From positions 186,001 to 250,000 of the forward strand of contig NZ_JAQPPK010000002.1 of NCBI RefSeq assembly GCF_029952445.1: 64,000 nt of DNA, written 5' to 3'. The notes beneath the pieces are model-generated. The model was not told where the DNA came from and searched no databases. It was given only the letters and a program-made list of their open reading frames with translations. A program made the position numbers and the translations under genes. This DNA is from Paenarthrobacter nitroguajacolicus. Its GTDB lineage: Bacteria; Actinomycetota; Actinomycetes; Actinomycetales; Micrococcaceae. Positions within the stretch are counted from its first letter, which is position 1. Each line of letters opens with the position of its first letter. Below, piece by piece: positions 47,662-59,438 of this stretch.

Positions 47662-49221
47662 CTAGGGCGCAGGAATGATGAGCGAGGACAACGGCACAAT
47701 CACGCCGTCCGGCCTCTGGACCAGGTCCGGGGCGATCAGGATGTAGCCGGGCGGGAGCGTCACAACCGGGAGGGCGGACGGGAGGACGGCCACCGGTGTT
47801 GGCGCAGGCGCCGGAGCAACGGGCGCCGGGGCGGGCGCCACGGTCTGCGTCACTGTTGGCACCACTACCGGTGCGGGCTCCACGACTACCGGGGCAGGTA
47901 CCGGAGGTTCGACGACGGCGGCTGGCGGCGGCGCGACGGCTGACTGGACGGTCGGAGCCTGGACAGTTGGGTCCTGGACGGCTGGTGCTTGGACCGTTGG
48001 CGCTTGGACCGTTGTGAGGGGGTCCGTTGCTACGGGCGTCGTCGGGACTACTGGAGCCGTGGTCTCGGGGGCTGTGGTGGTAGTCGTCGGGGTCGGCGTA
48101 ACCGTCGGTGTGGGGGTGACGGTTGGTGTCGGCGTGGCCGTCGGCGTCGGGGTGACTGTCGGCGTCGGCGTGACCGTCGGCGCCGGGGTGACCGTCGGCG
48201 TCGGCGTCACGGATGGTGACGGTACCGGCGTCGTGGTTTGAGGCGGTGACGGGACGGCGGGGCTGGTGGGCGTCTCCACCGACGTGACCGGTGGGACCAC
48301 AACGGGCGGGGCCACGGGTTCCTCGTGTTCGCCGCCGATGACTGCGCGGTTGGTGCCGTCGGCCACGGGGACTGCCCACTGCGGCGCAGAGCTTCCCGTG
48401 CCAACTCCCGGCTGGTAGTTCACGAACGTCATGGTTTGGAGCGGATCCACCTGCTTGATGGGCAGGTAGGTCCAGCCGTTCGGGTTGGTGTGGAGCCCGT
48501 TGACGATCGTCTCGAAGTGGAGGTGGCAGCCCGTGGACCAGCCGGTAGTGCCTACCTCGGCAATGACCTCGCCCACGCGGACCGACTGGCCCTGCGTGAC
48601 GCTGATGTCCTGCAAGTGGTTATAAGTGGTGACCAGGCCGTTGCCGTGCTCGATTTCCACACGGTTTCCGCCGCCCCAGATATGCCAACCAACAGCGCGG
48701 ACCACACCGGCGTCGGCTGCGTAGACCCGGGTTCCGCAGGCGGCCGCGTAGTCCTGGCCCCAGTGGAACTCGCCGGCAAGCCCGGTCAGCGGGCTGTAGC
48801 GGTAGCCGTAGGGAGAACTCGGATTGAGGACTTCAAGGGGCGCGTACAAGCTGCCTGCGGGAGGTCGGGACATGCCAGCCGAGGCTACTGTCAGTCCGGT
48901 GGAACCGTCTTTGCTCACCGTCCGGACTACCGCCCGGTCAAAGTAGACCATGGGCGTGCCAGGCGTTTGCTCGGGCGCTGCCTGGGTGGGGTCGATGACC
49001 ATGGTTTCAGCCTCGGGCGGCGTAAGGCTCCCCAATGCTGTAGGTCCTACGACGCCCTGGGCCACTGTTCCATCAACGGTTCCCATGGGAACGGATGTCA
49101 GCGGCTGGAAGCCGAAGGCGAAGAAGGCCAGAACCGCGAGGCATCCGGCGATAAAGACGCGGCGGAATTTTTCGGTACGGATCAGGTCAACTGCCCGGTC
49201 TGATTCATGATGCTTGCCCAC
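47662..49221 (-). CDS. M23 family peptidase with Pro/Thr-rich C-terminal repeats
   Basis: A 519-residue secreted or envelope endopeptidase. One N-terminal membrane segment (FIAGCLAVLAFFAFGF near residue 25) is followed by an M23 LytM domain with zinc ligands in EFHWGQDYAA near 148 and CHLHFETI near 225. From about residue 300 the chain is low complexity: TPTVTP-type six-residue repeats, then VQAPT five-residue repeats, then Ala/Pro/Val. GTG start at 49221 with GGGGAG about 6 nt upstream. It probably cleaves peptidoglycan cross-links at the surface, with the tail spanning the wall. Confidence 0.88.
   Translation of the reverse strand: MGKHHESDRAVDLIRTEKFRRVFIAGCLAVLAFFAFGFQPLTSVPMGTVDGTVAQGVVGPTALGSLTPPEAETMVIDPTQAAPEQTPGTPMVYFDRAVVRTVSKDGSTGLTVASAGMSRPPAGSLYAPLEVLNPSSPYGYRYSPLTGLAGEFHWGQDYAAACGTRVYAADAGVVRAVGWHIWGGGNRVEIEHGNGLVTTYNHLQDISVTQGQSVRVGEVIAEVGTTGWSTGCHLHFETIVNGLHTNPNGWTYLPIKQVDPLQTMTFVNYQPGVGTGSSAPQWAVPVADGTNRAVIGGEHEEPVAPPVVVPPVTSVETPTSPAVPSPPQTTTPVPSPSVTPTPTVTPAPTVTPTPTVTPTPTATPTPTVTPTPTVTPTPTTTTTAPETTAPVVPTTPVATDPLTTVQAPTVQAPAVQDPTVQAPTVQSAVAPPPAAVVEPPVPAPVVVEPAPVVVPTVTQTVAPAPAPVAPAPAPTPVAVLPSALPVVTLPPGYILIAPDLVQRPDGVIVPLSSLIIPAP
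47946..48005. repeat. 15-bp tandem repeats within the M23 peptidase gene
   Basis: Four 15-nt units (GGACnGTyGGnGCyT-like on the plus strand) encode the VQAPT/VQDPT five-residue repeats of the peptidase tail. Confidence 0.7.
48087..48212. repeat. 18-bp tandem repeats within the M23 peptidase gene
   Basis: Seven 18-nt units, such as TCGGCGTCGGGGTGACTG, encode the six-residue PTPTVT-type repeats. The high unit identity makes slipped-strand copy-number change in steps of six residues likely. Confidence 0.8.
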
Positions 49222-49269
49222 AAAACACTCCCCAAAGCCAGCGGCACCAAACCCCAGCCTGGCGTGCAA

Positions 49270-49920
49270 GCACCATTCTTGCGGGAATCACACCAGAAAT
49301 AAAGGCTTCGCGGGCGCTGGGAAGCGAAAGGTTGGATCAGTTTTTGCTCAAGATGTCTTGAGCTTTGCTGAGGGCGCTTCTGATCTATGTCGGCGAACCA
49401 GGGGACGCCCAATCCGGTTGGTTGTCCACTGCCGGATTGCGTTCTCTCCAGACCGTTGGCCCTCGGTCTGGAAACTCGAGCGGCTCGGCCGGGACCTGCG
49501 ACACCTGGTCAACATCGTCCCTGGCCCCACCGAATGCAGAGTCGGCCTGAAGGTCCTCACAGGGCAGGGCGCTGCCATTGACACCACAACCGCATCCGGG
49601 AAGCTCGTCTTCGGGATCTTTGGTGCCCTAGCCGAGTTCGAACGCGAGCTCATCTCCGAACGTACCCTCGCCGGGCTCGCCTCAACCCGTGCCGCGGTCG
49701 CAACGGTGGACGCCCGTACAAGGTGACCCCCGCTAAACTCAGGCTCGCCATGGCCTCCCTGGGCAAGCCCGCTACCAAGGTCAGCGCACTTTGCGCCGAA
49801 CCCGGTATCACCCGACAGACCTTGTACCGGGATGTTTCCCCGACCGGGGAACTACGGCCTGACGGGGCTAGGCTCTCGAACCCGAAAGAGGGTTTGCTTC
49901 AGGCGGTGACGATCATCAGT
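49270..49920. other. Gap between M23 peptidase and anmK: stem-loop and recombinase remnant
   Basis: About 650 bases without an intact gene. They contain upstream sequence of the minus-strand peptidase gene, a perfect inverted repeat GCTCAAGA-TG-TCTTGAGC at 49346-49363 followed by TTT, and the resolvase pseudogene at 49440-49880. Nothing else is recognisable. Confidence 0.6.
49440..49880 (+). pseudogene. Serine recombinase (resolvase/invertase) remnant, frameshifted
   Basis: One frame reads VWKLERLGRDLRHLVNIV, then GALAEFERELISERTLAGLA, the middle of a Tn3-type resolvase. The homology then moves to another frame near 49723, where AKLRLAMASLGKP and PGITRQTLYRDVSPTGELRP give the C-terminal HTH. 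The N-terminal part with the catalytic serine (Y-x-R-x-S) is missing. The truncation plus frameshift mark it as a dead mobile-element fragment, adjacent to the MurNAc cluster boundary. Confidence 0.8.
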
Positions 49921-51135
49921 TCAGGGCGCGGTGCGGACTTTTTGTTCCGTGTTCAGACGCCCAGCAGTTACGCCGACGATGCTGAGTGTTGTGGGCGCTG
50001 GGACCGCGGTCTGGATCTGAATACCGCCGGTTCCCGGCGTAATCGAGCCGAGGATACTCGCGTGGCGCGCGCCCGTGCAGCTCGGCACTGTGGCCGGAAG
50101 GTTGTGCACTGAGAGGTATCCGAGGACGGCGAACGCACAAGCCTCTTTCATTGACGAGGGAAGTCCGAGTTCGTCTGAGCGGCGCAGCTCGACATTTTCC
50201 AGTTCGTGCTCCAGGTCCCGCATCAGTGTTGGGTTGAGGGTGCCGCCGCCGGAGACAACCACCGATGTTCCTCCCACGGCTCTTACGGCGTCGGTTACGG
50301 TCCGGGCTGTTAGCCGGACAAGCGTGGCAATTACGTCCTCGGCCGGGAGGTCCTGCGTCCCGGTGTCCGCAAGTGCTGCGGTGAGATAGGGCAGGTGGAA
50401 CAGCTCCTTGCCGGTGGTCTTGGGGGCGGGCCGGGAGTAGTACGGCTCGTCGAGCAGCCGGTTGAGCAGTTCTGCGTGGACCGTGCCCCGGGCACCGAGC
50501 TCGCCGTTGTGGTCATAGCGTTGTTTGCCCGCAGTCATCGACGTGATCGCCGCGTCGATGAGCGCGTTTGCCGGCCCGGTATCGAAGGCTATGGGTTCGC
50601 CTGATACGACAGTGATGTTGGCAATTCCGCCGAGATTCAGGGCTACGGGCGTCCCCGACATCCCGCGCAGCCACAGAGTGTCGAACAGGCTCACCAATGG
50701 TGCTCCCTGGCCGCCGGCGGAAACGTCGCGGGATCGGAAGTTTGACACAACCGTGCATCCGGTTGCTTCCGCTATCCAGGACGGTTCTCCGAGCTGGAGG
50801 GTGCCGTGGACTGTGCCGCCTTCTACCCAGTGGAACACGGTCTGGCCGTGGGATGCGATGACTTCAGCCTGGCCATCGCAGAGCTGGTCGTTGGCCTTGG
50901 CCGCGAGTCGGGCAAAGGCCTGACCGATGCCTGCATCGAGCCGGCAGACCTGCTCCATGGAGGTCGTCGCGGGCGGCATCTGTGCCGCCAGGGCCGCCAG
51001 CAACTCATCGGGGTAGGGCTCGCTGATAGCACCCCGGGGATCAATCACCAAGGCATCACCTTCGCGGGTGATGTCAACGGCGACGGCATCGATCGCATCA
51101 TAAGACGTTCCGGACATCATGCCGATGATACGCAT
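49921..51135 (-). CDS. anmK: Anhydro-N-acetylmuramic acid kinase
   Basis: A 404-residue kinase that opens and phosphorylates 1,6-anhydro-MurNAc to MurNAc-6-phosphate. It begins MRIIGMMSGTSYDAIDAVAV, the ATP-binding phosphate-1 motif, with LNLGGIANITV near 185 and FDTGPANALIDA near 205, holding the catalytic-base Asp. ATG at 51135 with GGGAG upstream; the upstream in-frame extension is rejected. It is the distal gene of a murein-sugar salvage cluster and follows the transporter gene by 28 nt. Confidence 0.93.
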   Translation of the reverse strand: MRIIGMMSGTSYDAIDAVAVDITREGDALVIDPRGAISEPYPDELLAALAAQMPPATTSMEQVCRLDAGIGQAFARLAAKANDQLCDGQAEVIASHGQTVFHWVEGGTVHGTLQLGEPSWIAEATGCTVVSNFRSRDVSAGGQGAPLVSLFDTLWLRGMSGTPVALNLGGIANITVVSGEPIAFDTGPANALIDAAITSMTAGKQRYDHNGELGARGTVHAELLNRLLDEPYYSRPAPKTTGKELFHLPYLTAALADTGTQDLPAEDVIATLVRLTARTVTDAVRAVGGTSVVVSGGGTLNPTLMRDLEHELENVELRRSDELGLPSSMKEACAFAVLGYLSVHNLPATVPSCTGARHASILGSITPGTGGIQIQTAVPAPTTLSIVGVTAGRLNTEQKVRTAP

Positions 51136-51163
51136 GTGGATACTCCCTTTTCTTCTGGTTAGG

Positions 51164-52486
51164 TTAGTCGCGCAGGGCGTGCTTGTGGGCGGAACCACGG
51201 AGCGAGGCAAGTGCGAAGACGCTGATGATGCACGTGACCATCACGTAGTAAGCGGGGATGTCTTTGTTGCTCGTGGAAGCGATAAGGCCGGTAATGATGA
51301 GCCCAGCGGATCCCGAGAACACGGCGTTGGAGAGCGAGTACGCGAGTCCCAAGCCGGTGTAGCGAACAGTGGTGGGAAACATTTCCGAAAGCATGGCGGG
51401 GCCTGGGCCGGCCATCATGCCGACGACTGCACCTGCAATGAAAACGCCGGCTCCCATGAGCCACGGTGAGCTACCAGGATCCTGAAGGATTTTAAGGAGC
51501 GGCAGGGCAAGGACGGTGATGAGGATGGCGCCCGCCATCATGATCGGTCGGCGGCCCCACCGGTCGCTGAGAATGGCACTGGGGATGATGGAGGCGGCGA
51601 AGCCTGCATTGGCGAGCACTGTGGCGATCAGGGCCGCTTGGAACGTGGCGTGAAGGCTGGTCTGGAGATAGGAAGGCAGGACCACGAGGAATGTATAGCC
51701 GGCTGCTGACCAGCCCATGAGCCGTCCGATCCCAAGGAGGATCGCCTTGGCCGTTTCAGCTTTGCTGGGATGCGAAACGACGACGTCTGCCGTGTGCGTC
51801 TTCTCCGCCAGTGTGGCGCGCTGGAAGTTCGGAGTCTCCTCAAGCTTCAGCCGCAGGTAGAGTGCCACGAGGCCGAGGGGCAAAGCCAAAATGAAGGGGA
51901 TCCGCCAGCCCCAAGCGCTGAGGTCCTGAGCACTCAGAATCGAGGACATGAGAGCTGCGACGCCAGCGCCTGCCAAGAGACCCAGCGCGACAGTGAAGGA
52001 CTGCCATGATCCGAACCTTCCGCGTTTTCCAGGAGGTGCGAACTCGGTCATGATGGAAACGGCGCCGCCGAACTCACCACCCGCTGACAATCCTTGGAGA
52101 ATGCGGACAAGAGTCAGGAGGATCGGTGCCGTAATGCCCAATGTGGCGTAGTTGGGGAGCAGGCCGATGAGCGTGGTCGCCCCCGTCATCAGCAGCAGGA
52201 CGACGATCAGGGTGGGGCGCCGACCGACGCGGTCACCGATCCGGCCAAATATCCAGGCTCCGACGGGGCGGAAGAAGAACGCGATGGCGAACGAAGCATA
52301 GGTCTTGATGAGGGCCTCGAAGTCCGAGGCCCCTGTCGTCGTGAAGAAGTTGGCAGCGATGACGGTTGCAAACGCACCGTAGATGCCGAATTCGTACCAT
52401 TCGATGAAGTTGCCTACGGACCCGGCCACCAGGGCTCGCCTGGATTGCTTGGCGGGTGGCTGTTGGATGATTGTTGGGGTGCTCAT
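51164..52486 (-). CDS. MFS transporter, metabolite:H+ symporter (MHS) type
   Basis: A 440-residue, 12-helix major facilitator. The MHS signatures are GNFIEWYEFGIYGAFATVI near residue 26, FGRIGDRVGRRPTLI near 80 and GLSAGGEFGGAVSIMTEFAP near 130. It lies between anmK and nagB, where a transporter for murein sugars or for the lactate they release would be expected. Known MHS members carry proline/betaine, citrate, shikimate and similar acids, so MurNAc-type acids or D-lactate are plausible; the substrate is inferred. Confidence 0.85.
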   Translation of the reverse strand: MSTPTIIQQPPAKQSRRALVAGSVGNFIEWYEFGIYGAFATVIAANFFTTTGASDFEALIKTYASFAIAFFFRPVGAWIFGRIGDRVGRRPTLIVVLLLMTGATTLIGLLPNYATLGITAPILLTLVRILQGLSAGGEFGGAVSIMTEFAPPGKRGRFGSWQSFTVALGLLAGAGVAALMSSILSAQDLSAWGWRIPFILALPLGLVALYLRLKLEETPNFQRATLAEKTHTADVVVSHPSKAETAKAILLGIGRLMGWSAAGYTFLVVLPSYLQTSLHATFQAALIATVLANAGFAASIIPSAILSDRWGRRPIMMAGAILITVLALPLLKILQDPGSSPWLMGAGVFIAGAVVGMMAGPGPAMLSEMFPTTVRYTGLGLAYSLSNAVFSGSAGLIITGLIASTSNKDIPAYYVMVTCIISVFALASLRGSAHKHALRD

Positions 52487-52574
52487 GATTTCTCCTACGT
52501 TGTGCGGGGATTCGCCATGTCCTATGACGACGACCGATGGTTATGGCGGTTCAGGCCGCCTTGTTGCAGCGCCT

Positions 52575-53360
52575 CTAGAGTTTTTGCCAGTCCGGTTTGT
52601 GCCTGAAGGAATGGCGGTAGTAGTCGGCCAGTGAGAGCTGTGACGCCGCGGCGTCATCCAACAGCACGGTGACGTGTGGGTGCAGTTGTAGCGCTGATGC
52701 CGGGCACAGGGCCGAGACGGGCCCTTCAACCAAGTGCCGTACCGCTTGGGCTTTGTTCGCCCCAGTTGCCGCCAGCAGGATGTGACTGGCCTCCAGGATG
52801 GTTCCGAGACCCTGTGTCACCACATGCCTTGGGACTTCGTCCAGGGAGTCAAAGAATCTGGCATTGTCGCGCCTGGTTTGTTCAGTGAGCGTCTTGATTC
52901 GTGTGCGTGACGCCAGGGACGAGCCCGGTTCGTTGAAGCCAATGTGGCCGTCCGTGCCAATGCCCAGGATCTGCAGATCAACCCCGCCAGCAGCTTGCAC
53001 GGCTTTCTCGTACGCTTGGCAAGCATAGTGCGTACCTGCGGCGTTGCCCGCCGGGCCGTGGACGTTGGCTGGATCGAAGTCCACCTTGTCGGTGAACTCC
53101 TTCCGGATTACCTCACGGTATTGCTCAGGGTGCCCATCGGGCAGACCCACGTATTCATCGAGTGTGAATGCGCGGGCACGTGCGAAACTCACAGTCCCCG
53201 ACTGATAGCGCTGCTCAAGTTCCCGGTAGATAGGCAGAGGTGAGGAGCCCGTGGCAAGGCCGAGAACCGCGTGGGCTTTACCCGCAAGCAGTGACTCGAT
53301 TTGGTCCGCTGCCAGCCTGCCGACTTCTGCAGTGTTGGGGAGAATAACGATCTCCATCAC
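52575..53360 (-). CDS. nagB: Glucosamine-6-phosphate deaminase
   Basis: A 261-residue enzyme converting glucosamine-6-phosphate to fructose-6-phosphate and ammonia. Motifs are LGLATGSSPLPIYREL near residue 33, ARAFTLDEYVGLP near 62 and GIGTDGHIGFNEPGSSLASR near 136 (catalytic Asp, His and Glu). Its ATG overlaps the stop of the flavoenzyme gene by 4 bases. Length matches the family. It finishes amino-sugar breakdown; the preceding deacetylase NagA is not in this window. Confidence 0.94.
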   Translation of the reverse strand: MMEIVILPNTAEVGRLAADQIESLLAGKAHAVLGLATGSSPLPIYRELEQRYQSGTVSFARARAFTLDEYVGLPDGHPEQYREVIRKEFTDKVDFDPANVHGPAGNAAGTHYACQAYEKAVQAAGGVDLQILGIGTDGHIGFNEPGSSLASRTRIKTLTEQTRRDNARFFDSLDEVPRHVVTQGLGTILEASHILLAATGANKAQAVRHLVEGPVSALCPASALQLHPHVTVLLDDAAASQLSLADYYRHSFRHKPDWQKL

Positions 53361-56212
53361 ACGGCCCCTTCCGTTGGTTTGGTCGCATCATCCAGCAGTT
53401 CGAGGATGTGTCGGTATTGGTGGCCCGTGGCTTGGGTCATGCCCAGTTCGCAGGTTCTGTTGGTTGACGCGTACGCCGAGTGGCCACTCTGGTTGATTTC
53501 GGCTGCCTGCGCCGCGGTCGCGGACTCGGTCAGCTCGGGGTGCAGCAGACCGCGGTCTCCGGCGTATGCGCAGCATCCCCAACTGGGTGGAACCATCACT
53601 TCTCCGGACAGGGAGCTGGCAATCGCTGTCAATGCATCGTTGATACCGAGGCGTGTTGAGGAGCAGGTGGGGTGGAGCGCAAGGGATTCAAGGTGTCGTG
53701 GAATCTCCAGGTGCGGTACTAGCCGCTTGTTGGCGAACTCCACCGAGTCGATGAAAGTGAGTTGCGAATACTCTGAATCGGCCGCCGTGTCCCGCAGGGT
53801 CTCAAGCCCCTCCGTGCAGGAGGATGCGTCGCAAACCACGGGCAGGCGACCCTCGTCGCTTGCGTCCCAGAGTGCTGGAAGGACCTTGGTCCTCATGACG
53901 TCATAGCCTGTTGTGAATCCCTTCGACTTCCACGGCGTTCCGCAACAGAGGTCACCGATTCCTTCAGGAACGGCCAGCACTACGCCAACCCGTTCAGCAA
54001 GGTTCACGAATGCCTTGGAGACCCCGTCGCCCTGACGGCCGTGACCATCGTTGGCAGCGCCGAACATGGCGCCGATGCAGGCCGGAAAATAGACGGCTTC
54101 AGCGGATGGCGGCCGCTGCGCGCCGATCCGCTTGTGGCCTCCCTTGGGCAGCGCGTCAGCGTAGAGCGGCACGTTTTCGTCTCCGAGGGCCAGCCTGCCG
54201 ACGCGGGTGACGGCCTTCACCACAGGGGAGGGCGCCATTTTCACGGCGCTCAGTCCTAGCGACCCGACGGTGGTGACGGCCTCCCAATGCTTTGATGCGG
54301 CAGTCCAGCCTTTGTCGGCCAGGGTGACACGGTTTTCGGATCGGAGCCGACGCACCAGATCCCCGGTGTTTATAAGCACTGGACAGGCAATCTGGCACAT
54401 GCCATCTGCCGCGCACGTCTGAATACCGTCGTAGTCGAAGTCGCTGCGCAGGCGCTTGGCGAGGTCGTGGTCGCCGTGTTGTTCCGCAGTGGCGATTTCG
54501 CGGCGAATGACGATCCGTTGACGGGGAGTCAGGGTCAGGTCCTTGCTTGGGCATACGGGTTCGCAGTAGCCGCATTCGACACAGCGGTCTACTTCGTTTT
54601 CCACCGAAGGTGCCGTCTTGAGGTTGTCCATGTAGGAGCGTGGATCTTCGGAAAGGACAACGCCGGGGTTTAACAGGCCTGAGGGGTCGGTCAGTGCCTT
54701 GATGCTGGCCATGACTTCGTAGAGTTCACGGCCATACTGGCGTTCGACGAACGGAGCCATGATCCGGCCGGTACCATGCTCAGCCTTCAGGGTGCCCTGT
54801 CGCTGGAGTACCAGGTCCACCATGTCTTCGGTAAAGGCCTCGTAGCGGGCCAGCAGCGAAGGATCGCCGAAGCGCTCAGTGAGCATGAAGTGGATGTTTC
54901 CGTCCTTCGCGTGGCCAAAGATCACGCTGTCCTGGTAGCCGTGGCGTTCGAAGAGTGAGAGCAAGTCTTGGCAGGTCTCGGCTAACACGGGGACGGGGAC
55001 CGCGATGTCTTCGAGTAGGGCGTTGGTGCCAACAGGCCGGTTGCCCGCGACGGCCGTGTAAAGGCCCTTTCGGATGTGCCAAAGGGCTGCCCGTTTGGCG
55101 GCGTCTGTCGATAGCTCGAACGGCGCAGCAAGAGCCAGGGAGCTGAACAGTTCGAGGCTTTCCCGATGCTTATGCTGCACTTCCTCCGCGGACGCACCCT
55201 GGTGTTCGACGAGCAGGGCTGCGTGTCGATCGATGTCCAGCCCAGCCAAGGTGGTCGGGGTGTCGACCTGGTGCTGGGCCACGCGCAACGATGCGGCGTC
55301 CATGAGTTCGATGCTGGACAGTCCCGATGCGACCAGATCCGGCAGCGACGAGGCAGCGGCGTCCAATGAAGGGAACACCATCAGGCCGGTCCCCGCATGC
55401 ATCAGGGATTCGATGGTGCGGAAGGTTGCCTGAGCAATAAAGCCCAGGGTTCCTTCAGATCCGATCATGAGGTGCTCCAGGATCTTCACCGGTGTCTCGA
55501 AATCGAGGAAAGAGTTGAGCGCGTACCCCATGGTGTTCTTCATGGAGAACTGGTGCTCAATGGTGCGCACGGAAGCTGGATTGGTCACGATCCGGTGGCG
55601 CAGACGTGCCAGCCCGTCATGCAGTTCGGGTTCTGTTGCGCGCAGGTGCTGGTCGGCCGTGGGATCCGCGGTATCGATCACAGTTCCCGATGGCAGAACG
55701 AACACCATGGACTCGAGCGTGCGGTAGGTGTTGAATTCGGTGCCGCAGGACATCCCGGAGGAGTTGTTTGCAACGACGCCGCCGATCGTGCAGGCACTTT
55801 CACTCGCCGGGTCCGGGCCGAGCTTGCGCCCATACTGGGCCAGCCGGGCATTTACGCTTCGCACCGTAGCCCCCGGACCCAAGCGGACTTTGGCGCCGCC
55901 GGCCAGCACCTCTATCGAGCGGAAGTTCTTGCGGACATCCAGCAGGAGTCCGTCCGTGATTGCCTGGCCGCTCAGCGACGTTCCGCCTGAACGAAAGACC
56001 AAGGGGACGCCGGAAGAAGCGGCCGCCGCCATGATCTGACCTACTTCGGCAGGGTCTAACGGCGCGAGTACAGCCTGCGGGGTTAGGAGATAGTGCGACG
56101 CGTCGTGGGCCAAAGCGAGGCGGTCGAGCTCCCGTGTGGAGAAGCCGCTGAAGCCGCGGAGCGAAGTATCCACTCTCATCGGAGCACTAACCTCTTTCTG
56201 GCATTCGGTCAT
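53357..56212 (-). CDS. FAD- and Fe-S-containing D-lactate dehydrogenase (Dld-II type)
   Basis: A 951-residue flavo-iron-sulfur dehydrogenase. The N-terminal FAD_binding_4 domain has PLVFRSGGTSLSGQAITDGL near residue 72, followed by the FAD-oxidase C-terminal domain. Two 4Fe-4S motifs, CVECGYCEPVCP near 543 and CAADGMCQIACP near 602, and CCG-domain cysteines (DLCCGTPWKSKG, WGCCAYAGDRG) complete the GlpC-like part. D-2-hydroxyacid substrate is family knowledge; D-lactate is favoured because MurQ, encoded 60 nt upstream, releases it. An ATG at 56179 is an alternative start (MRVDTSL). Confidence 0.88.
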   Translation of the reverse strand: MTECQKEVSAPMRVDTSLRGFSGFSTRELDRLALAHDASHYLLTPQAVLAPLDPAEVGQIMAAAASSGVPLVFRSGGTSLSGQAITDGLLLDVRKNFRSIEVLAGGAKVRLGPGATVRSVNARLAQYGRKLGPDPASESACTIGGVVANNSSGMSCGTEFNTYRTLESMVFVLPSGTVIDTADPTADQHLRATEPELHDGLARLRHRIVTNPASVRTIEHQFSMKNTMGYALNSFLDFETPVKILEHLMIGSEGTLGFIAQATFRTIESLMHAGTGLMVFPSLDAAASSLPDLVASGLSSIELMDAASLRVAQHQVDTPTTLAGLDIDRHAALLVEHQGASAEEVQHKHRESLELFSSLALAAPFELSTDAAKRAALWHIRKGLYTAVAGNRPVGTNALLEDIAVPVPVLAETCQDLLSLFERHGYQDSVIFGHAKDGNIHFMLTERFGDPSLLARYEAFTEDMVDLVLQRQGTLKAEHGTGRIMAPFVERQYGRELYEVMASIKALTDPSGLLNPGVVLSEDPRSYMDNLKTAPSVENEVDRCVECGYCEPVCPSKDLTLTPRQRIVIRREIATAEQHGDHDLAKRLRSDFDYDGIQTCAADGMCQIACPVLINTGDLVRRLRSENRVTLADKGWTAASKHWEAVTTVGSLGLSAVKMAPSPVVKAVTRVGRLALGDENVPLYADALPKGGHKRIGAQRPPSAEAVYFPACIGAMFGAANDGHGRQGDGVSKAFVNLAERVGVVLAVPEGIGDLCCGTPWKSKGFTTGYDVMRTKVLPALWDASDEGRLPVVCDASSCTEGLETLRDTAADSEYSQLTFIDSVEFANKRLVPHLEIPRHLESLALHPTCSSTRLGINDALTAIASSLSGEVMVPPSWGCCAYAGDRGLLHPELTESATAAQAAEINQSGHSAYASTNRTCELGMTQATGHQYRHILELLDDATKPTEGAV

Positions 56213-56272
56213 CCGACGCTGCCTTTCTTGCGTGAGTATGGGGGGTGTCCAAAGGTGTTCCCGAAATGATGT

Positions 56273-57205
56273 TTAGTTCTGGCGAAGGGATTCCGTGGCA
56301 CGCCGCAGGTCGCCTCCTGCGGCCTGAACAGCACCGCGGGCTACCTCCGGTTCGGCGCCGGTGAACATGATGGCCAAAGCAACTTTCAAGTCACCTTCGG
56401 CGGCTTCGAGTGCGCTGAGGCAGCCCGCTTCAGCCCCGCCGGTGGCCTCCATCAGGATCCTGACCGTGCGTGCCCGCAGCTTCTCATTGGTGGCCACGAC
56501 GGACACCATCAGATTCGACCAGGTCTTACCTAGTTTGATCATCAGGGTGGTGGAGAAACCGTTGAGCATGAGCTTCTGGGCAGTTCCCGCTTTAAGGCGG
56601 GTTGACCCGGCCAACGCCTCGGCACCGGTGTCTGCTACGAGAAGAAAATCCGCCAAGTGGCCCAGTTCCGGCTCCTTGGCGCAGGAGATGAGTGCCGTCG
56701 TGGCACCCTGTTCGCGACCAGCTGTCAACGCCCCGCCGACATACGGGGTTCGTCCTGAAGCGGCAATGCCAATAACGACATCTCCGGGTCGAGTGTCTCT
56801 CGCCTCTGCAACACCGGCATCCCAGGAATCCTCAACGTTTTCTACGGCATGGGTCAGAGCCCGGCTTCCTCCGGCATGGTGTGCAACAACAACGCCCTCG
56901 GGCAGGTTGAACGTAGGTCTCAGTTCAGCCGCGTCAAGGACGCCCAGACGTCCGGAGGTGCCGGCCCCGAAATAGTGAACCCGTCCGCCGCCGCGGATAG
57001 ACTCCTCTGCTGCTTCCACCAGCTGGGCCATTACCGGAAGGGTGAGACGGACCGCAGCGGGTGCCCGCTGGTCTTCGTCATTGAGCGCTTCCAGGATTTT
57101 GACAGTCGGGAGCTGATCAAGATCAAGAGTCCGATCGCTGCGCGCTTCAGTACTAATGTCCAGCCAAGCTGGGTTCTCGGGGCGGGCATGCGGTTTAGCG
57201 GTCAT
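56273..57205 (-). CDS. murQ: N-acetylmuramic acid 6-phosphate etherase
   Basis: A 310-residue SIS-fold etherase that splits MurNAc-6-phosphate into GlcNAc-6-phosphate and D-lactate. Signatures are VHYFGAGTSGRLGVLDAAEL near residue 80, with the conserved Glu of the DAAE segment, and VIGIAASGRTPYVGGAL near 148. The C-terminal helical part ends ARGAVQAAGGDLRRATESL. First gene of the minus-strand cluster, divergent from the RpiR-type regulator. Confidence 0.94.
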   Translation of the reverse strand: MTAKPHARPENPAWLDISTEARSDRTLDLDQLPTVKILEALNDEDQRAPAAVRLTLPVMAQLVEAAEESIRGGGRVHYFGAGTSGRLGVLDAAELRPTFNLPEGVVVAHHAGGSRALTHAVENVEDSWDAGVAEARDTRPGDVVIGIAASGRTPYVGGALTAGREQGATTALISCAKEPELGHLADFLLVADTGAEALAGSTRLKAGTAQKLMLNGFSTTLMIKLGKTWSNLMVSVVATNEKLRARTVRILMEATGGAEAGCLSALEAAEGDLKVALAIMFTGAEPEVARGAVQAAGGDLRRATESLRQN

Positions 57206-57247
57206 CGAGGTCCCTAATTTCCTTTGTGTGTGATTTACCTGACATTC

Positions 57248-57277
57248 AAGGTAGGTGCTTCACGACCGTCGTGTCAA
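57248..57277 (-). promoter_or_regulatory. Probable murQ promoter with palindrome in the spacer
   Basis: On the minus strand TTGACA (plus-strand 57272-57277), an 18-nt spacer and TACCTT (57248-57253) lie about 45 nt upstream of the murQ start. A perfect palindrome CACGACCGTCGTG (57261-57273) occupies the spacer and touches -35, a good repressor site. Binding by the divergent RpiR-type regulator is inferred. Confidence 0.55.
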
Positions 57278-57369
57278 TCATTTACATGAAATTCAGTTTT
57301 TAGGAAACTTATGTACAAGATCCTGTTGTCCCGGTACCTTGGTAGGAGGGCAACAAGAAGGAGCATCCG

Positions 57370-58278
57370 ATGGAAGATGTCGGACACCAAGGGTCATCAA
57401 GAACGGTGCTGGTGAGGATCCGGTCAGCGCTGCCGTCGCTTCGGCCTTCCGAACGAAGCATCGCGGAAGCCGTCCTTGCCGACCCCTCGCGGGTTGCCAC
57501 GATATCCATAGGTGACCTCGCGGAGGAGTGCGGGACCTCGACCACGTCAGTCGTGCGCTTCGCCAAGAAGATTGGCTACAGCGGATATTCGGACCTCCGC
57601 CTCGATCTGGTGCGTGAGGCGACTCGCGAGAGTCTGGCCAACAATGTCCCGGCCGAAGTCTACGAAGACATTGACCAGGCAGACTCTCTTCAGGACGTAG
57701 TTTCCAAAATTGCTTTCAACGAGACGATGTCCATCGCTGACACTGCCCAACTGCTCGATGTTCAAAAGTTGGAGGAAGCGGTCGCGGCGATCTCAGTGGC
57801 CAGGAAGACCGACATCTTTGGAGTCGGTGCCGGCGCGCTGGTTGGGCAGGATTTACGCCAGAAACTGCACCGGATCGATCAGACCGCCTTCAGCTGGTCC
57901 GAGGCGCACGCAGCGTGGACCTCAGCGGCACTTCTGGACAACTCATGCGTGGCCGTAGCAATTTCGCATTCTGGAACGACGGTCGACACCGTTGATTTCC
58001 TCAGGGTCGCCAATGACGTCGGAGCAACCACGATCGCCATCACCAACCACGCCGATTCCACACTCGGCCAGGAAGCCGACATTGTGCTCTGCACGGCAGC
58101 TCGAGAGACACCCTTCCGGCCGGGCGCTTTGGGCAGCCGCATTGCCCAAATGATGGTCATCGATTGCCTCTTTGTGGGTGTAGCGCAGCGGTCATATGAG
58201 GCCTCGATCGCCGCCCTGCGCAAGACCCACGCAGCCATTCAAGTCCGCCGCCTGTCCCAACGAATGCCGAACCAATAG
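57370..58278 (+). CDS. MurR/RpiR family transcriptional regulator
   Basis: A 302-residue regulator. The N-terminal HTH_6 domain includes ISIGDLAEECGTSTTSVVRF near residue 41. The C-terminal SIS sugar-phosphate-binding domain has IFGVGAGALVGQDLRQKLHR and VAVAISHSGTTVDTVDFLRV. It is divergent from murQ and so is the likely regulator of the MurNAc cluster, probably sensing MurNAc-6-phosphate as described for E. coli MurR; this is inferred. Confidence 0.9.
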   Translation: MEDVGHQGSSRTVLVRIRSALPSLRPSERSIAEAVLADPSRVATISIGDLAEECGTSTTSVVRFAKKIGYSGYSDLRLDLVREATRESLANNVPAEVYEDIDQADSLQDVVSKIAFNETMSIADTAQLLDVQKLEEAVAAISVARKTDIFGVGAGALVGQDLRQKLHRIDQTAFSWSEAHAAWTSAALLDNSCVAVAISHSGTTVDTVDFLRVANDVGATTIAITNHADSTLGQEADIVLCTAARETPFRPGALGSRIAQMMVIDCLFVGVAQRSYEASIAALRKTHAAIQVRRLSQRMPNQ

Positions 58279-59045
58279 GAGCACCCGATTGCGGCGCTGG
58301 ATTCCTCCTTCGGACCGCCCCAAACTGCCCACTTGGGGAGTCGTTGAAGCTTTCCCCACGAAGGAAGCCTAGGTTTGTCAATCGCAGCGCTGGCGCCGTG
58401 CCTTGAATGTGGGCATGTCACGACCAGTTTGGAGTGAAGTATTGAATAGCTCGGAGCTTCTGGAGCTGCTGAGGCGATATCAATTACGGAAGGAGTAGAT
58501 GAATTTCATGAGCTGATGAAGGTGATGCTTCAGCAACTGACGGTTCTTTTCATTCCGCCTGACATCCAATCCTCTCTGCAGACCGCTGAAGCCTATTGGA
58601 GAGGCGATAAGACCGTCACCGCCGATGACTTGGAGTCAGCCAGGTTCAACACTTGGGAGTACTTGGACAGTTTCCCCAAGGCGCTGATCTGAAGACCTGG
58701 GGAGTCCGAACGGCCCGTGCCCTTTTGTGAGTCACCGAACCGGGGGGAGACACCGAAATAAGGTCAATGAAGGCCAAGTGGTTCGCCGCCATGATCTGGA
58801 ATGAGTGGTGAACTCCGGGGGCGTCCCACTAGGAACCCATCGGGTATGTTTGCAGGCGATCTGACTTGGGCCAGAGAGCCACCTCGATACTTGCAGTTAG
58901 GGCCAGGTTCGCCAGTTATGCATTTGGGTAGTCTCGGCCCAAAGCAGCGCCCGTAAGTGCGACGTCCCCGCGCGCGCCTTCCAGTACACTACCTTGATGG
59001 ACTGATTCAAGTTGCGCTTCCCCCTCGGAGCCGGGACGCGTCGCG
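58279..59045. other. Gene-poor region, lower GC
   Basis: About 770 bases with no recognisable intact gene. Base composition is visibly less GC-rich than the flanks. The only coding-like stretch is the short frame at 58516-58692 and its open upstream extension. From 58700 to 59045 I see no gene, hairpin or promoter that I would defend. It separates the MurNAc cluster from the MarR/efflux pair and may be a decayed insertion. Confidence 0.5.
58516..58692 (+). CDS. Possible small protein or remnant (58 residues)
   Basis: Frame MKVMLQQLTVLFIPPDIQSS followed by TAEAYWRGDKTVTADDLESA and ending NTWEYLDSFPKALI. The pattern of an aromatic helix pair (AYWRG, WEYLD) recalls small uncharacterised or immunity-type proteins. 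The frame is open upstream to about 58450 (through ITEGVDEFHEL) but has no start codon there. The AAGGAG at 58490-58495 serves an ATG at 58499 in another frame that stops after five codons, so a frameshifted remnant is likely. Confidence 0.3.
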   Translation: MKVMLQQLTVLFIPPDIQSSLQTAEAYWRGDKTVTADDLESARFNTWEYLDSFPKALI

Positions 59046-59438
59046 TCAGCCCAGGTTTTCCTTCAGCAGCGCACGGTGTTCGACGGCGGCATTTGCGTGG
59101 ATCGCGCGGCCGGCCTCAGTCAATTCCAGGAACAGCGAGCGGCGGTCTTCAGCGCAGGTTTGGCGGGAAACGAGGCCTGCCTTTTCCAGGCGGTCCACCA
59201 CTTTGGACACGGCGCTCTGCGTCATGGGTGTCCGCTCCCCCAACGACTTCATGCGACAGGACGATTCTTCGCTGTCAGCAACGAGATCCAGGATTTCGAA
59301 CTCGTTCAGCCCGATATCGAACTTGGCTTCAAGGGCGCGGTCGATTGCTCCTGCGGTACGGAAGTAGGAGCTCTGGATGCTGCGCCACTGCTCAACCAAT
59401 TCCCGGTCTTCCAGCTGGCGGTCACGCGTCGTTGCCAT
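59046..59438 (-). CDS. MarR family transcriptional regulator
   Basis: A 130-residue winged-helix regulator. The recognition helix is MTQSAVSKVVDRLEKAGLVS near residue 72 and the wing CAEDRRSLFLELTEAGRA near 97. It is divergent from the MFS efflux gene across a 96-bp region rich in repeats, the standard layout for a drug- or phenolic-responsive repressor of an exporter. Confidence 0.9.
   Translation of the reverse strand: MATTRDRQLEDRELVEQWRSIQSSYFRTAGAIDRALEAKFDIGLNEFEILDLVADSEESSCRMKSLGERTPMTQSAVSKVVDRLEKAGLVSRQTCAEDRRSLFLELTEAGRAIHANAAVEHRALLKENLG

Follow-up and report, generated by a model that had tools for sequence, protein, structure and literature searches.

A probable horizontally acquired island for the catabolism of free 1,6-anhydro-N-acetylmuramic acid in Paenarthrobacter nitroguajacolicus

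1,6-Anhydro-N-acetylmuramic acid (anhMurNAc) is the sugar left by lytic transglycosylases, and the reactions of AnmK, MurQ, NagA and NagB are established family knowledge. Here we describe a six-gene cluster of Paenarthrobacter nitroguajacolicus, located in a stretch of 64,000 nucleotides (the window) on contig 12, the whole genome comprising 4.78 Mb in 83 contigs, in comparison with the closest described systems. With the murQ-murP/AnmK route of Escherichia coli the cluster has in common the AnmK, MurQ, NagA and NagB chemistry as well as a divergent RpiR-type regulator (PMC5061867), whereas, unlike E. coli, the cluster holds no MurP-type phosphotransferase system (PTS) and no penicillin-binding protein gene, keeps anmK inside the operon, and includes its own MHS-like transporter and a predicted lactate dehydrogenase of Dld-II type. 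The murT-murK-murQ system of Tannerella forsythia resembles the route proposed below in that a muramic sugar enters without a PTS and is then processed by a kinase and MurQ, although its kinase is MurK and not AnmK (PMC5790795, PMC7670621). The MurNAc-6-phosphate (MurNAc-6-P; MurNAc, N-acetylmuramic acid) etherase operon of Streptomyces coelicolor likewise represents actinobacterial MurQ-based recycling, but no function is assigned to the operon partners SCO4305 and SCO4306, and the excerpted report mentions no transporter or lactate enzyme (PMC5061867). As in the window enzyme, the Dld-II protein HP1222 of Helicobacter pylori combines a Dld part with an additional C-terminal 4Fe-4S domain, and it is needed for growth on D-lactate (PMC4117512); HP1222 was studied for external lactate, whereas the window dehydrogenase gene sits in a muramic-sugar operon.

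MurT is described as a sodium symporter in one place and as an MFS protein in another (PMC5790795), and for anhMurNAc import in T. forsythia, AmpG was ruled out and MurT only considered (PMC7670621). According to a 2026 preprint, mycobacteria take up MurNAc by an unknown transporter, and Arthrobacter globiformis, a relative of the present host, gave only background fluorescence with a MurNAc probe, which reports wall incorporation and not catabolism (PMC13041923). Lactate accumulated in engineered Corynebacterium glutamicum fed MurNAc (PMC6165865). Within the excerpted open-licence literature, including PMC3022706 and PMC13046382, neither an MHS nor an MFS protein was found described as a partner of AnmK or as a carrier of anhMurNAc.

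The six genes lie at 49921-58278, where a sequence-only reading of this DNA had already placed them, and the family models agreed with every name, "MHS-like" being the exact one for the transporter. Their order on the minus strand is murQ-dld-nagB-mhs-anmK, with rpiR divergent on the plus strand. The murQ gene (56273-57205) encodes a MurNAc-6-P etherase that passed the subfamily model PRK05441 (349.4 bits, cut-off 168) and matched the solved etherase 4s12 with an E value of 3.6e-72. It is followed by the gene of a dehydrogenase of flavin adenine dinucleotide (FAD) and 4Fe-4S type (53357-56212), by nagB for glucosamine-6-phosphate deaminase (52575-53360; TIGR00502, 270.4 bits, cut-off 236.9), the likely start of which is the ATG at 53357, and by the MHS-like MFS transporter gene (51164-52486). 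The last gene is anmK, for anhMurNAc kinase (49921-51135), whose product passed the equivalog model NF007146 (572.5 bits, cut-off 440) and scored 402.6 bits with PF03702; its frame is open from 51210, and the family match starts at the ATG at 51135. Because the gaps amount to 28 bases between anmK and the transporter gene and then to 88 bases, an overlap of 1 to 4 bases and 60 bases, the five minus-strand genes are consistent with one operon.

On the basis of the gene identities, the operon layout, the recurrence of gene pairs and the insertion, all directly observed, we consider it quite probable that the locus, its Dld-II-type enzyme and RpiR regulator included, was acquired horizontally as an island for the catabolism of free anhMurNAc. 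The MHS-like transporter would import anhMurNAc, probably together with protons, and AnmK would open the anhydro ring and phosphorylate the sugar to MurNAc-6-P, from which MurQ would release D-lactate and N-acetylglucosamine 6-phosphate (GlcNAc-6-P). The latter would be converted to fructose 6-phosphate by NagA, whose gene lies elsewhere, and by NagB, while the Dld-II-type enzyme would oxidize D-lactate to pyruvate and feed the electrons into the respiratory chain. Through its SIS domain, the RpiR protein may sense MurNAc-6-P or a similar sugar phosphate and in this way control the operon. The assignment of the cluster to MurNAc-6-P salvage, which the sequence-only reading had made, is supported by the gene context, and its interpretation as a whole is partly supported; the insertion and the wide occurrence of the transporter-anmK pair are additions to it.

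As to the acquisition, the cluster lies within an inserted island of about 9.7 kb (49368-59047), flanked by the gene of an M23 peptidase on one side and by a marR-type gene on the other. Seven genus relatives matched the neighbouring M23 peptidase best; the comparison used five of these, and in 5/5 the DNA similarity ended at 49366-49382 and restarted at 59043-59050, the surrounding gene order was retained and the cluster-bearing insertion of about 9.7 kb was missing. The two flanks are 15-17 bases apart in G022, G367 and G032, and in G346 and G033 the site is occupied by other DNA, about 1.4 and 2.9 kb long, respectively; the insertion site is therefore variable. At the left edge, a plus-strand reading frame (49214-49726) that starts outside the island holds a degenerate serine-resolvase stretch (PF00239, residues 85-160, 63.7 bits), and with this remnant and the other DNA in two relatives, the site may be a hot spot. 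A search for mobile-element ends found no exact direct or inverted repeat of at least 9 bases between 49351-49500 and 58851-59060. The murQ gene was found in nine of 36 other genus genomes searched, always at 43-47% identity to that of the window, and the second murQ of the own genome is 46% identical; the window's murQ type is thus rare among genus relatives.

A clue to the role of the transporter is its neighbour. The class was sampled evenly with 296 genomes (E < 1e-120 for the transporter, E < 1e-40 for anmK); the transporter occurred in nine of them, the window's own included, and in each of the nine a comparison of coordinates placed anmK immediately downstream and on the same strand. 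At these thresholds, 51 of the 296 genomes have anmK. All nine also have murQ, in the same cluster in only 2/9. Among named loci, taken as the best 80 of 578 confirmed ones (best-segment identity 63-87%), anmK adjoins the transporter in 60: it is adjacent and downstream in 59/63 actinobacterial loci, and adjacent and upstream in 1/17 proteobacterial loci. The loci were grouped by the titles of their records; two Rhodococcus loci in this set were labelled cyanobacterial, which we took as a homonym. Clustering of the open reading frames of the 80 loci often took shadow frames and served for exploration only, and the later gene calls were home-made. The dehydrogenase accompanies the transporter in only four of the 80. 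Of five plasmid loci looked at, drawn from 1440 records with a match, three carry the pair; two of these are from Streptomyces, and the third, on Klebsiella pneumoniae plasmid CP032835.1 (L007:4801-9293), shows the order rpiR-anmK-murQ-transporter, its anmK being 37% and its transporter 62% identical. A tree of 87 clade members was built by a quick method and has many weak forks; anmK linkage could be mapped on it with 4 changes, as compared with a mean of 19.8 for shuffled labels. Since near copies cluster labels, this result shows only non-scatter. The transporter-anmK pair is thus widespread in Actinomycetota, and the adjacency is strong but indirect evidence for the role of the transporter.

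The best NCBIfam model of the transporter is TIGR00883 (metabolite/H+ symporter), covered at 399 of 400 positions (E 9.6e-114). Its closest named relatives among the best 80 loci are from Arthrobacter (87% and 80% identical), and its paralogues in the own genome reach at most 44% identity over part and at most 39% over the full length, none of them adjoining anmK. An AlphaFold2 model built from 49 sequences has the standard MFS fold (mean predicted local distance difference test score 89.4, predicted template modelling score 0.89), and the top fold matches, among them SV2A and transporters of xylose, phosphate and oxalate, reflect the general MFS fold and name no substrate. R255, W259, N293 and the stretch W161-Q162-S163 are invariant in the 87 clade members and found in 0/8 paralogues. 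Constancy of 95% or more among the 65 members linked to anmK, with at most one of the eight paralogues sharing the residue, was seen at 20 polar or aromatic positions. Most of these 20 are also constant in the 22 anmK-unlinked members, which may therefore share the substrate; alternatively, the constant positions may mark descent only. In a profile alignment to E. coli XylE, W161-Q162-S163 aligned with the helix-5 stretch holding a glutamine that we take to be sugar-binding; for the R255/W259 region, no reliable profile alignment with XylE was obtained, and hence no pocket is claimed. Given its adjacency to anmK, the transporter most likely imports free anhMurNAc, and we lean somewhat toward regarding the MHS-like clade marked by the invariant residues as dedicated proton-coupled importers of this sugar, which together with anmK would form a mobile two-gene unit.

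The dehydrogenase has FAD_binding_4 (PF01565), FAD-oxidase_C (PF02913) and Fer4_8 (PF13183) in this order in one chain, which is the Dld-II build. GHxxDGNxH and EHG are kept in its alignments to the solved D-2-hydroxyacid dehydrogenases 8jdc, 7qh2 and 3pm9; 8jdc is a mitochondrial D-lactate dehydrogenase chain, and in the variant chain 8jdb alanine replaces the second of these histidines. For the genomic context, relatives from 60 other class genomes were retrieved at E < 1e-100 with at most two candidates scored per genome, and the neighbourhoods of the 47 with at least 50% identity were inspected out to 7.5 kb, or less at contig ends, leaving out 13 more distant ones. Either murQ or anmK was found near five of the 47 (G043, G056, G338, G128 and G266) and a lactate permease near four (G330, G002, G248 and G322); since G330 and G002 supplied the permease probes, the independent finds are G248 and G322. 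In G330, the closest relative in the draw (66%), the neighbours are the lactate permease, a GntR/FCD regulator and LUD and CCG proteins. The four named loci in which the dehydrogenase accompanies the transporter are L037, L040, L041 and L045, where it clusters with anmK, the transporter, murQ and nagB; the gene order in the Plantibacter loci L040, L041 and L045 differs from that of the window, and no rpiR was found within the 19.3 kb of L037. A D-lactate dehydrogenase of Dld-II type is the best reading of the enzyme, and the corresponding proposal of the sequence-only reading is supported by the gene context.

Other uptake arrangements were also encountered. A sodium:solute symporter lies beside anmK in nine of the ten class genomes having the symporter at E < 1e-80, the exception being G332, and the MHS-like transporter is present in none of the ten. 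Such symporters directly adjoin anmK at L150:5599-8403, L152:8569-11392 and L138:5576-8291. Because they occupy the position that the MHS-like transporter holds elsewhere, the transporter place beside anmK is filled by two families. Within the genus, L145:7878-12683 (G030) and L146:6889-14440 (G017) have murQ, anmK, rpiR and nagB grouped beside apparent ATP-binding cassette (ABC) transporter genes, and these ABC-type genes look like a third uptake solution. Contig 6 of the own genome (L143:138-3411) carries the second murQ, between the gene of a BcrAD/BadF-family kinase, presumably of the same family as MurK, and that of an MFS transporter of another type, whose best model is that of aromatic acid/H+ symporters, below cut-off. 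Apparently the same murQ/kinase/MFS trio occurs in the genus relative L147, as judged by protein starts. The second murQ with its MurK-like kinase probably serves MurNAc, so that the contig 6 and window sets would divide labour between MurNAc and anhMurNAc.

Several observations weigh against this interpretation of the transporter and its cluster. The transporter scored 380.5 bits, under the TIGR00883 cut-off of 443.45, and it is called "MHS-like" for this reason; the window MurQ narrowly missed the equivalog model TIGR00274 (284.4 bits, cut-off 302). The 20 named loci without adjacent anmK comprise 16 from Enterobacterales and four from Nonomuraea, and no anmK is nearby in the Pandoraea and Pantoea plasmid loci. 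Clade members stand beside an aromatic amino-acid lyase in Serratia (L079, 7196-8842) and beside a trehalase in Winslowiella (L104, 7239-8918), in neither case beside anmK, and that of Rahnella (L058) neighbours FhuF-like and Fe-ADH proteins; part of the clade may thus carry something other than anhMurNAc. Neither transporter family adjoins anmK in 33 of the 51 class genomes with anmK; in some of them ABC transporter genes stand at this place, as in L140, where an SBP_bac_5 protein is encoded. Neither murQ/anmK nor a lactate permease is near 38 of the 47 dehydrogenase relatives. In E. coli, moreover, free anhMurNAc reportedly does not support growth and was suggested to be exported if unphosphorylated (PMC7670621).

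The sequence-only reading had left anhMurNAc and MurNAc as alternative substrates for an importer; its importer role agrees with the gene context, and anhMurNAc appears the likelier of the two, because AnmK is encoded in the cluster whereas a MurNAc kinase is not, and because the genome carries a separate set of murQ, BcrAD/BadF kinase and MFS transporter. That the protein imports MurNAc, or both sugars, is thus doubtful, even though the two are closely similar, murQ is used in both routes, the contig 6 kinase could act on imported MurNAc and E. coli MurP also admits anhMurNAc (PMC7670621). Import of D-lactate or another carboxylate, with anhMurNAc entering by another route, would fit the metabolite/H+ symporter model and the lactate-type dehydrogenase in the cluster. 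The known relatives of that model mostly carry organic acids. However, the transporter tracks anmK (9/9 and 59/63) and only rarely the dehydrogenase (4/80), and LctP-type permeases lie beside some dehydrogenase relatives outside MurNAc clusters (4/47), which makes carboxylate import improbable. Sodium:solute symporters, the other family beside anmK, are uptake systems, and an operon with a kinase, an etherase, a deaminase and a lactate enzyme has the layout of consumption; we accordingly regard it as very unlikely that the transporter exports anhMurNAc that is harmful if not phosphorylated. Such export has been suggested for E. coli (PMC7670621). An equally remote prospect is that the substrate of the kinase and transporter pair is levoglucosan (1,6-anhydroglucose), at least in genomes where the pair is not accompanied by murQ: levoglucosan kinase is among the PDB relatives of AnmK (E 1.9e-55, as compared with 1.7e-60 for the best AnmK) and murQ is not next to the pair in seven of nine class genomes, but the AnmK equivalog cut-off was passed, murQ is present in all nine of these genomes, and murQ and nagB stand inside the window operon. 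As for the FAD/4Fe-4S enzyme, its best PDB chain is a glycolate oxidase, with D-lactate dehydrogenase next, its best NCBIfam model is glcD (183.8 bits, under the cut-off of 567.9), and a Dld-II relative in Campylobacter was identified as an L-lactate enzyme (PMC4117512). Oxidation of L-lactate or of another 2-hydroxy acid such as glycolate or 2-hydroxyglutarate nevertheless seems rather unlikely, considering that the MurQ product is D-lactate, that relatives occur near murQ/anmK or a lactate permease, and that the score with the YdiJ 2-hydroxyglutarate model (164.6 bits) is far under the cut-off of 1350.

With respect to the remaining steps of the proposed anhMurNAc route, the sequence-only reading had noted that NagA is absent, which holds for the locus and not for the genome, since NagA is encoded on contig 56 (227 bits, barely over the cut-off of 225.65). 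It had also noted the absence of a MurNAc-6-P-forming PTS, and indeed no MurP-type PTS was found in the cluster, while the two PF02378 permeases of the genome, the PTS family that was searched, are of mannitol and fructose type. The regulator gene rpiR (57370-58278, plus strand) encodes a MurR/RpiR-type protein with PF01418 (HTH_6) and PF01380 (SIS). Within the divergent promoter region between murQ and rpiR (57206-57369), a 16-base direct repeat occurs twice (57233-57248 and 57280-57295); its copies, 88% alike and 47 bases apart, form a tentative candidate for an RpiR operator. With up to 3 mismatches allowed, the 14-base core of the repeat was found upstream of murQ in L037 (2 and 3 mismatches) and not in the other eight of nine cluster-upstream regions searched; the two perfect matches in the window itself follow by construction.

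The insertion points to the acquisition of cell-wall scavenging in a single step, and K. pneumoniae plasmid CP032835.1 indicates that muramic-sugar use can be plasmid-borne in Enterobacterales. Since 3 of 11 carbons leave MurQ as D-lactate, the Dld-II enzyme would complete the use of the sugar. For the import of anhMurNAc into cells without a MurNAc PTS, the constant pairing of the transporter with anmK in Actinomycetota gives a definite candidate. If this assignment is true, a two-gene transporter-anmK unit would let bacteria feed on the cell-wall debris of other bacteria.

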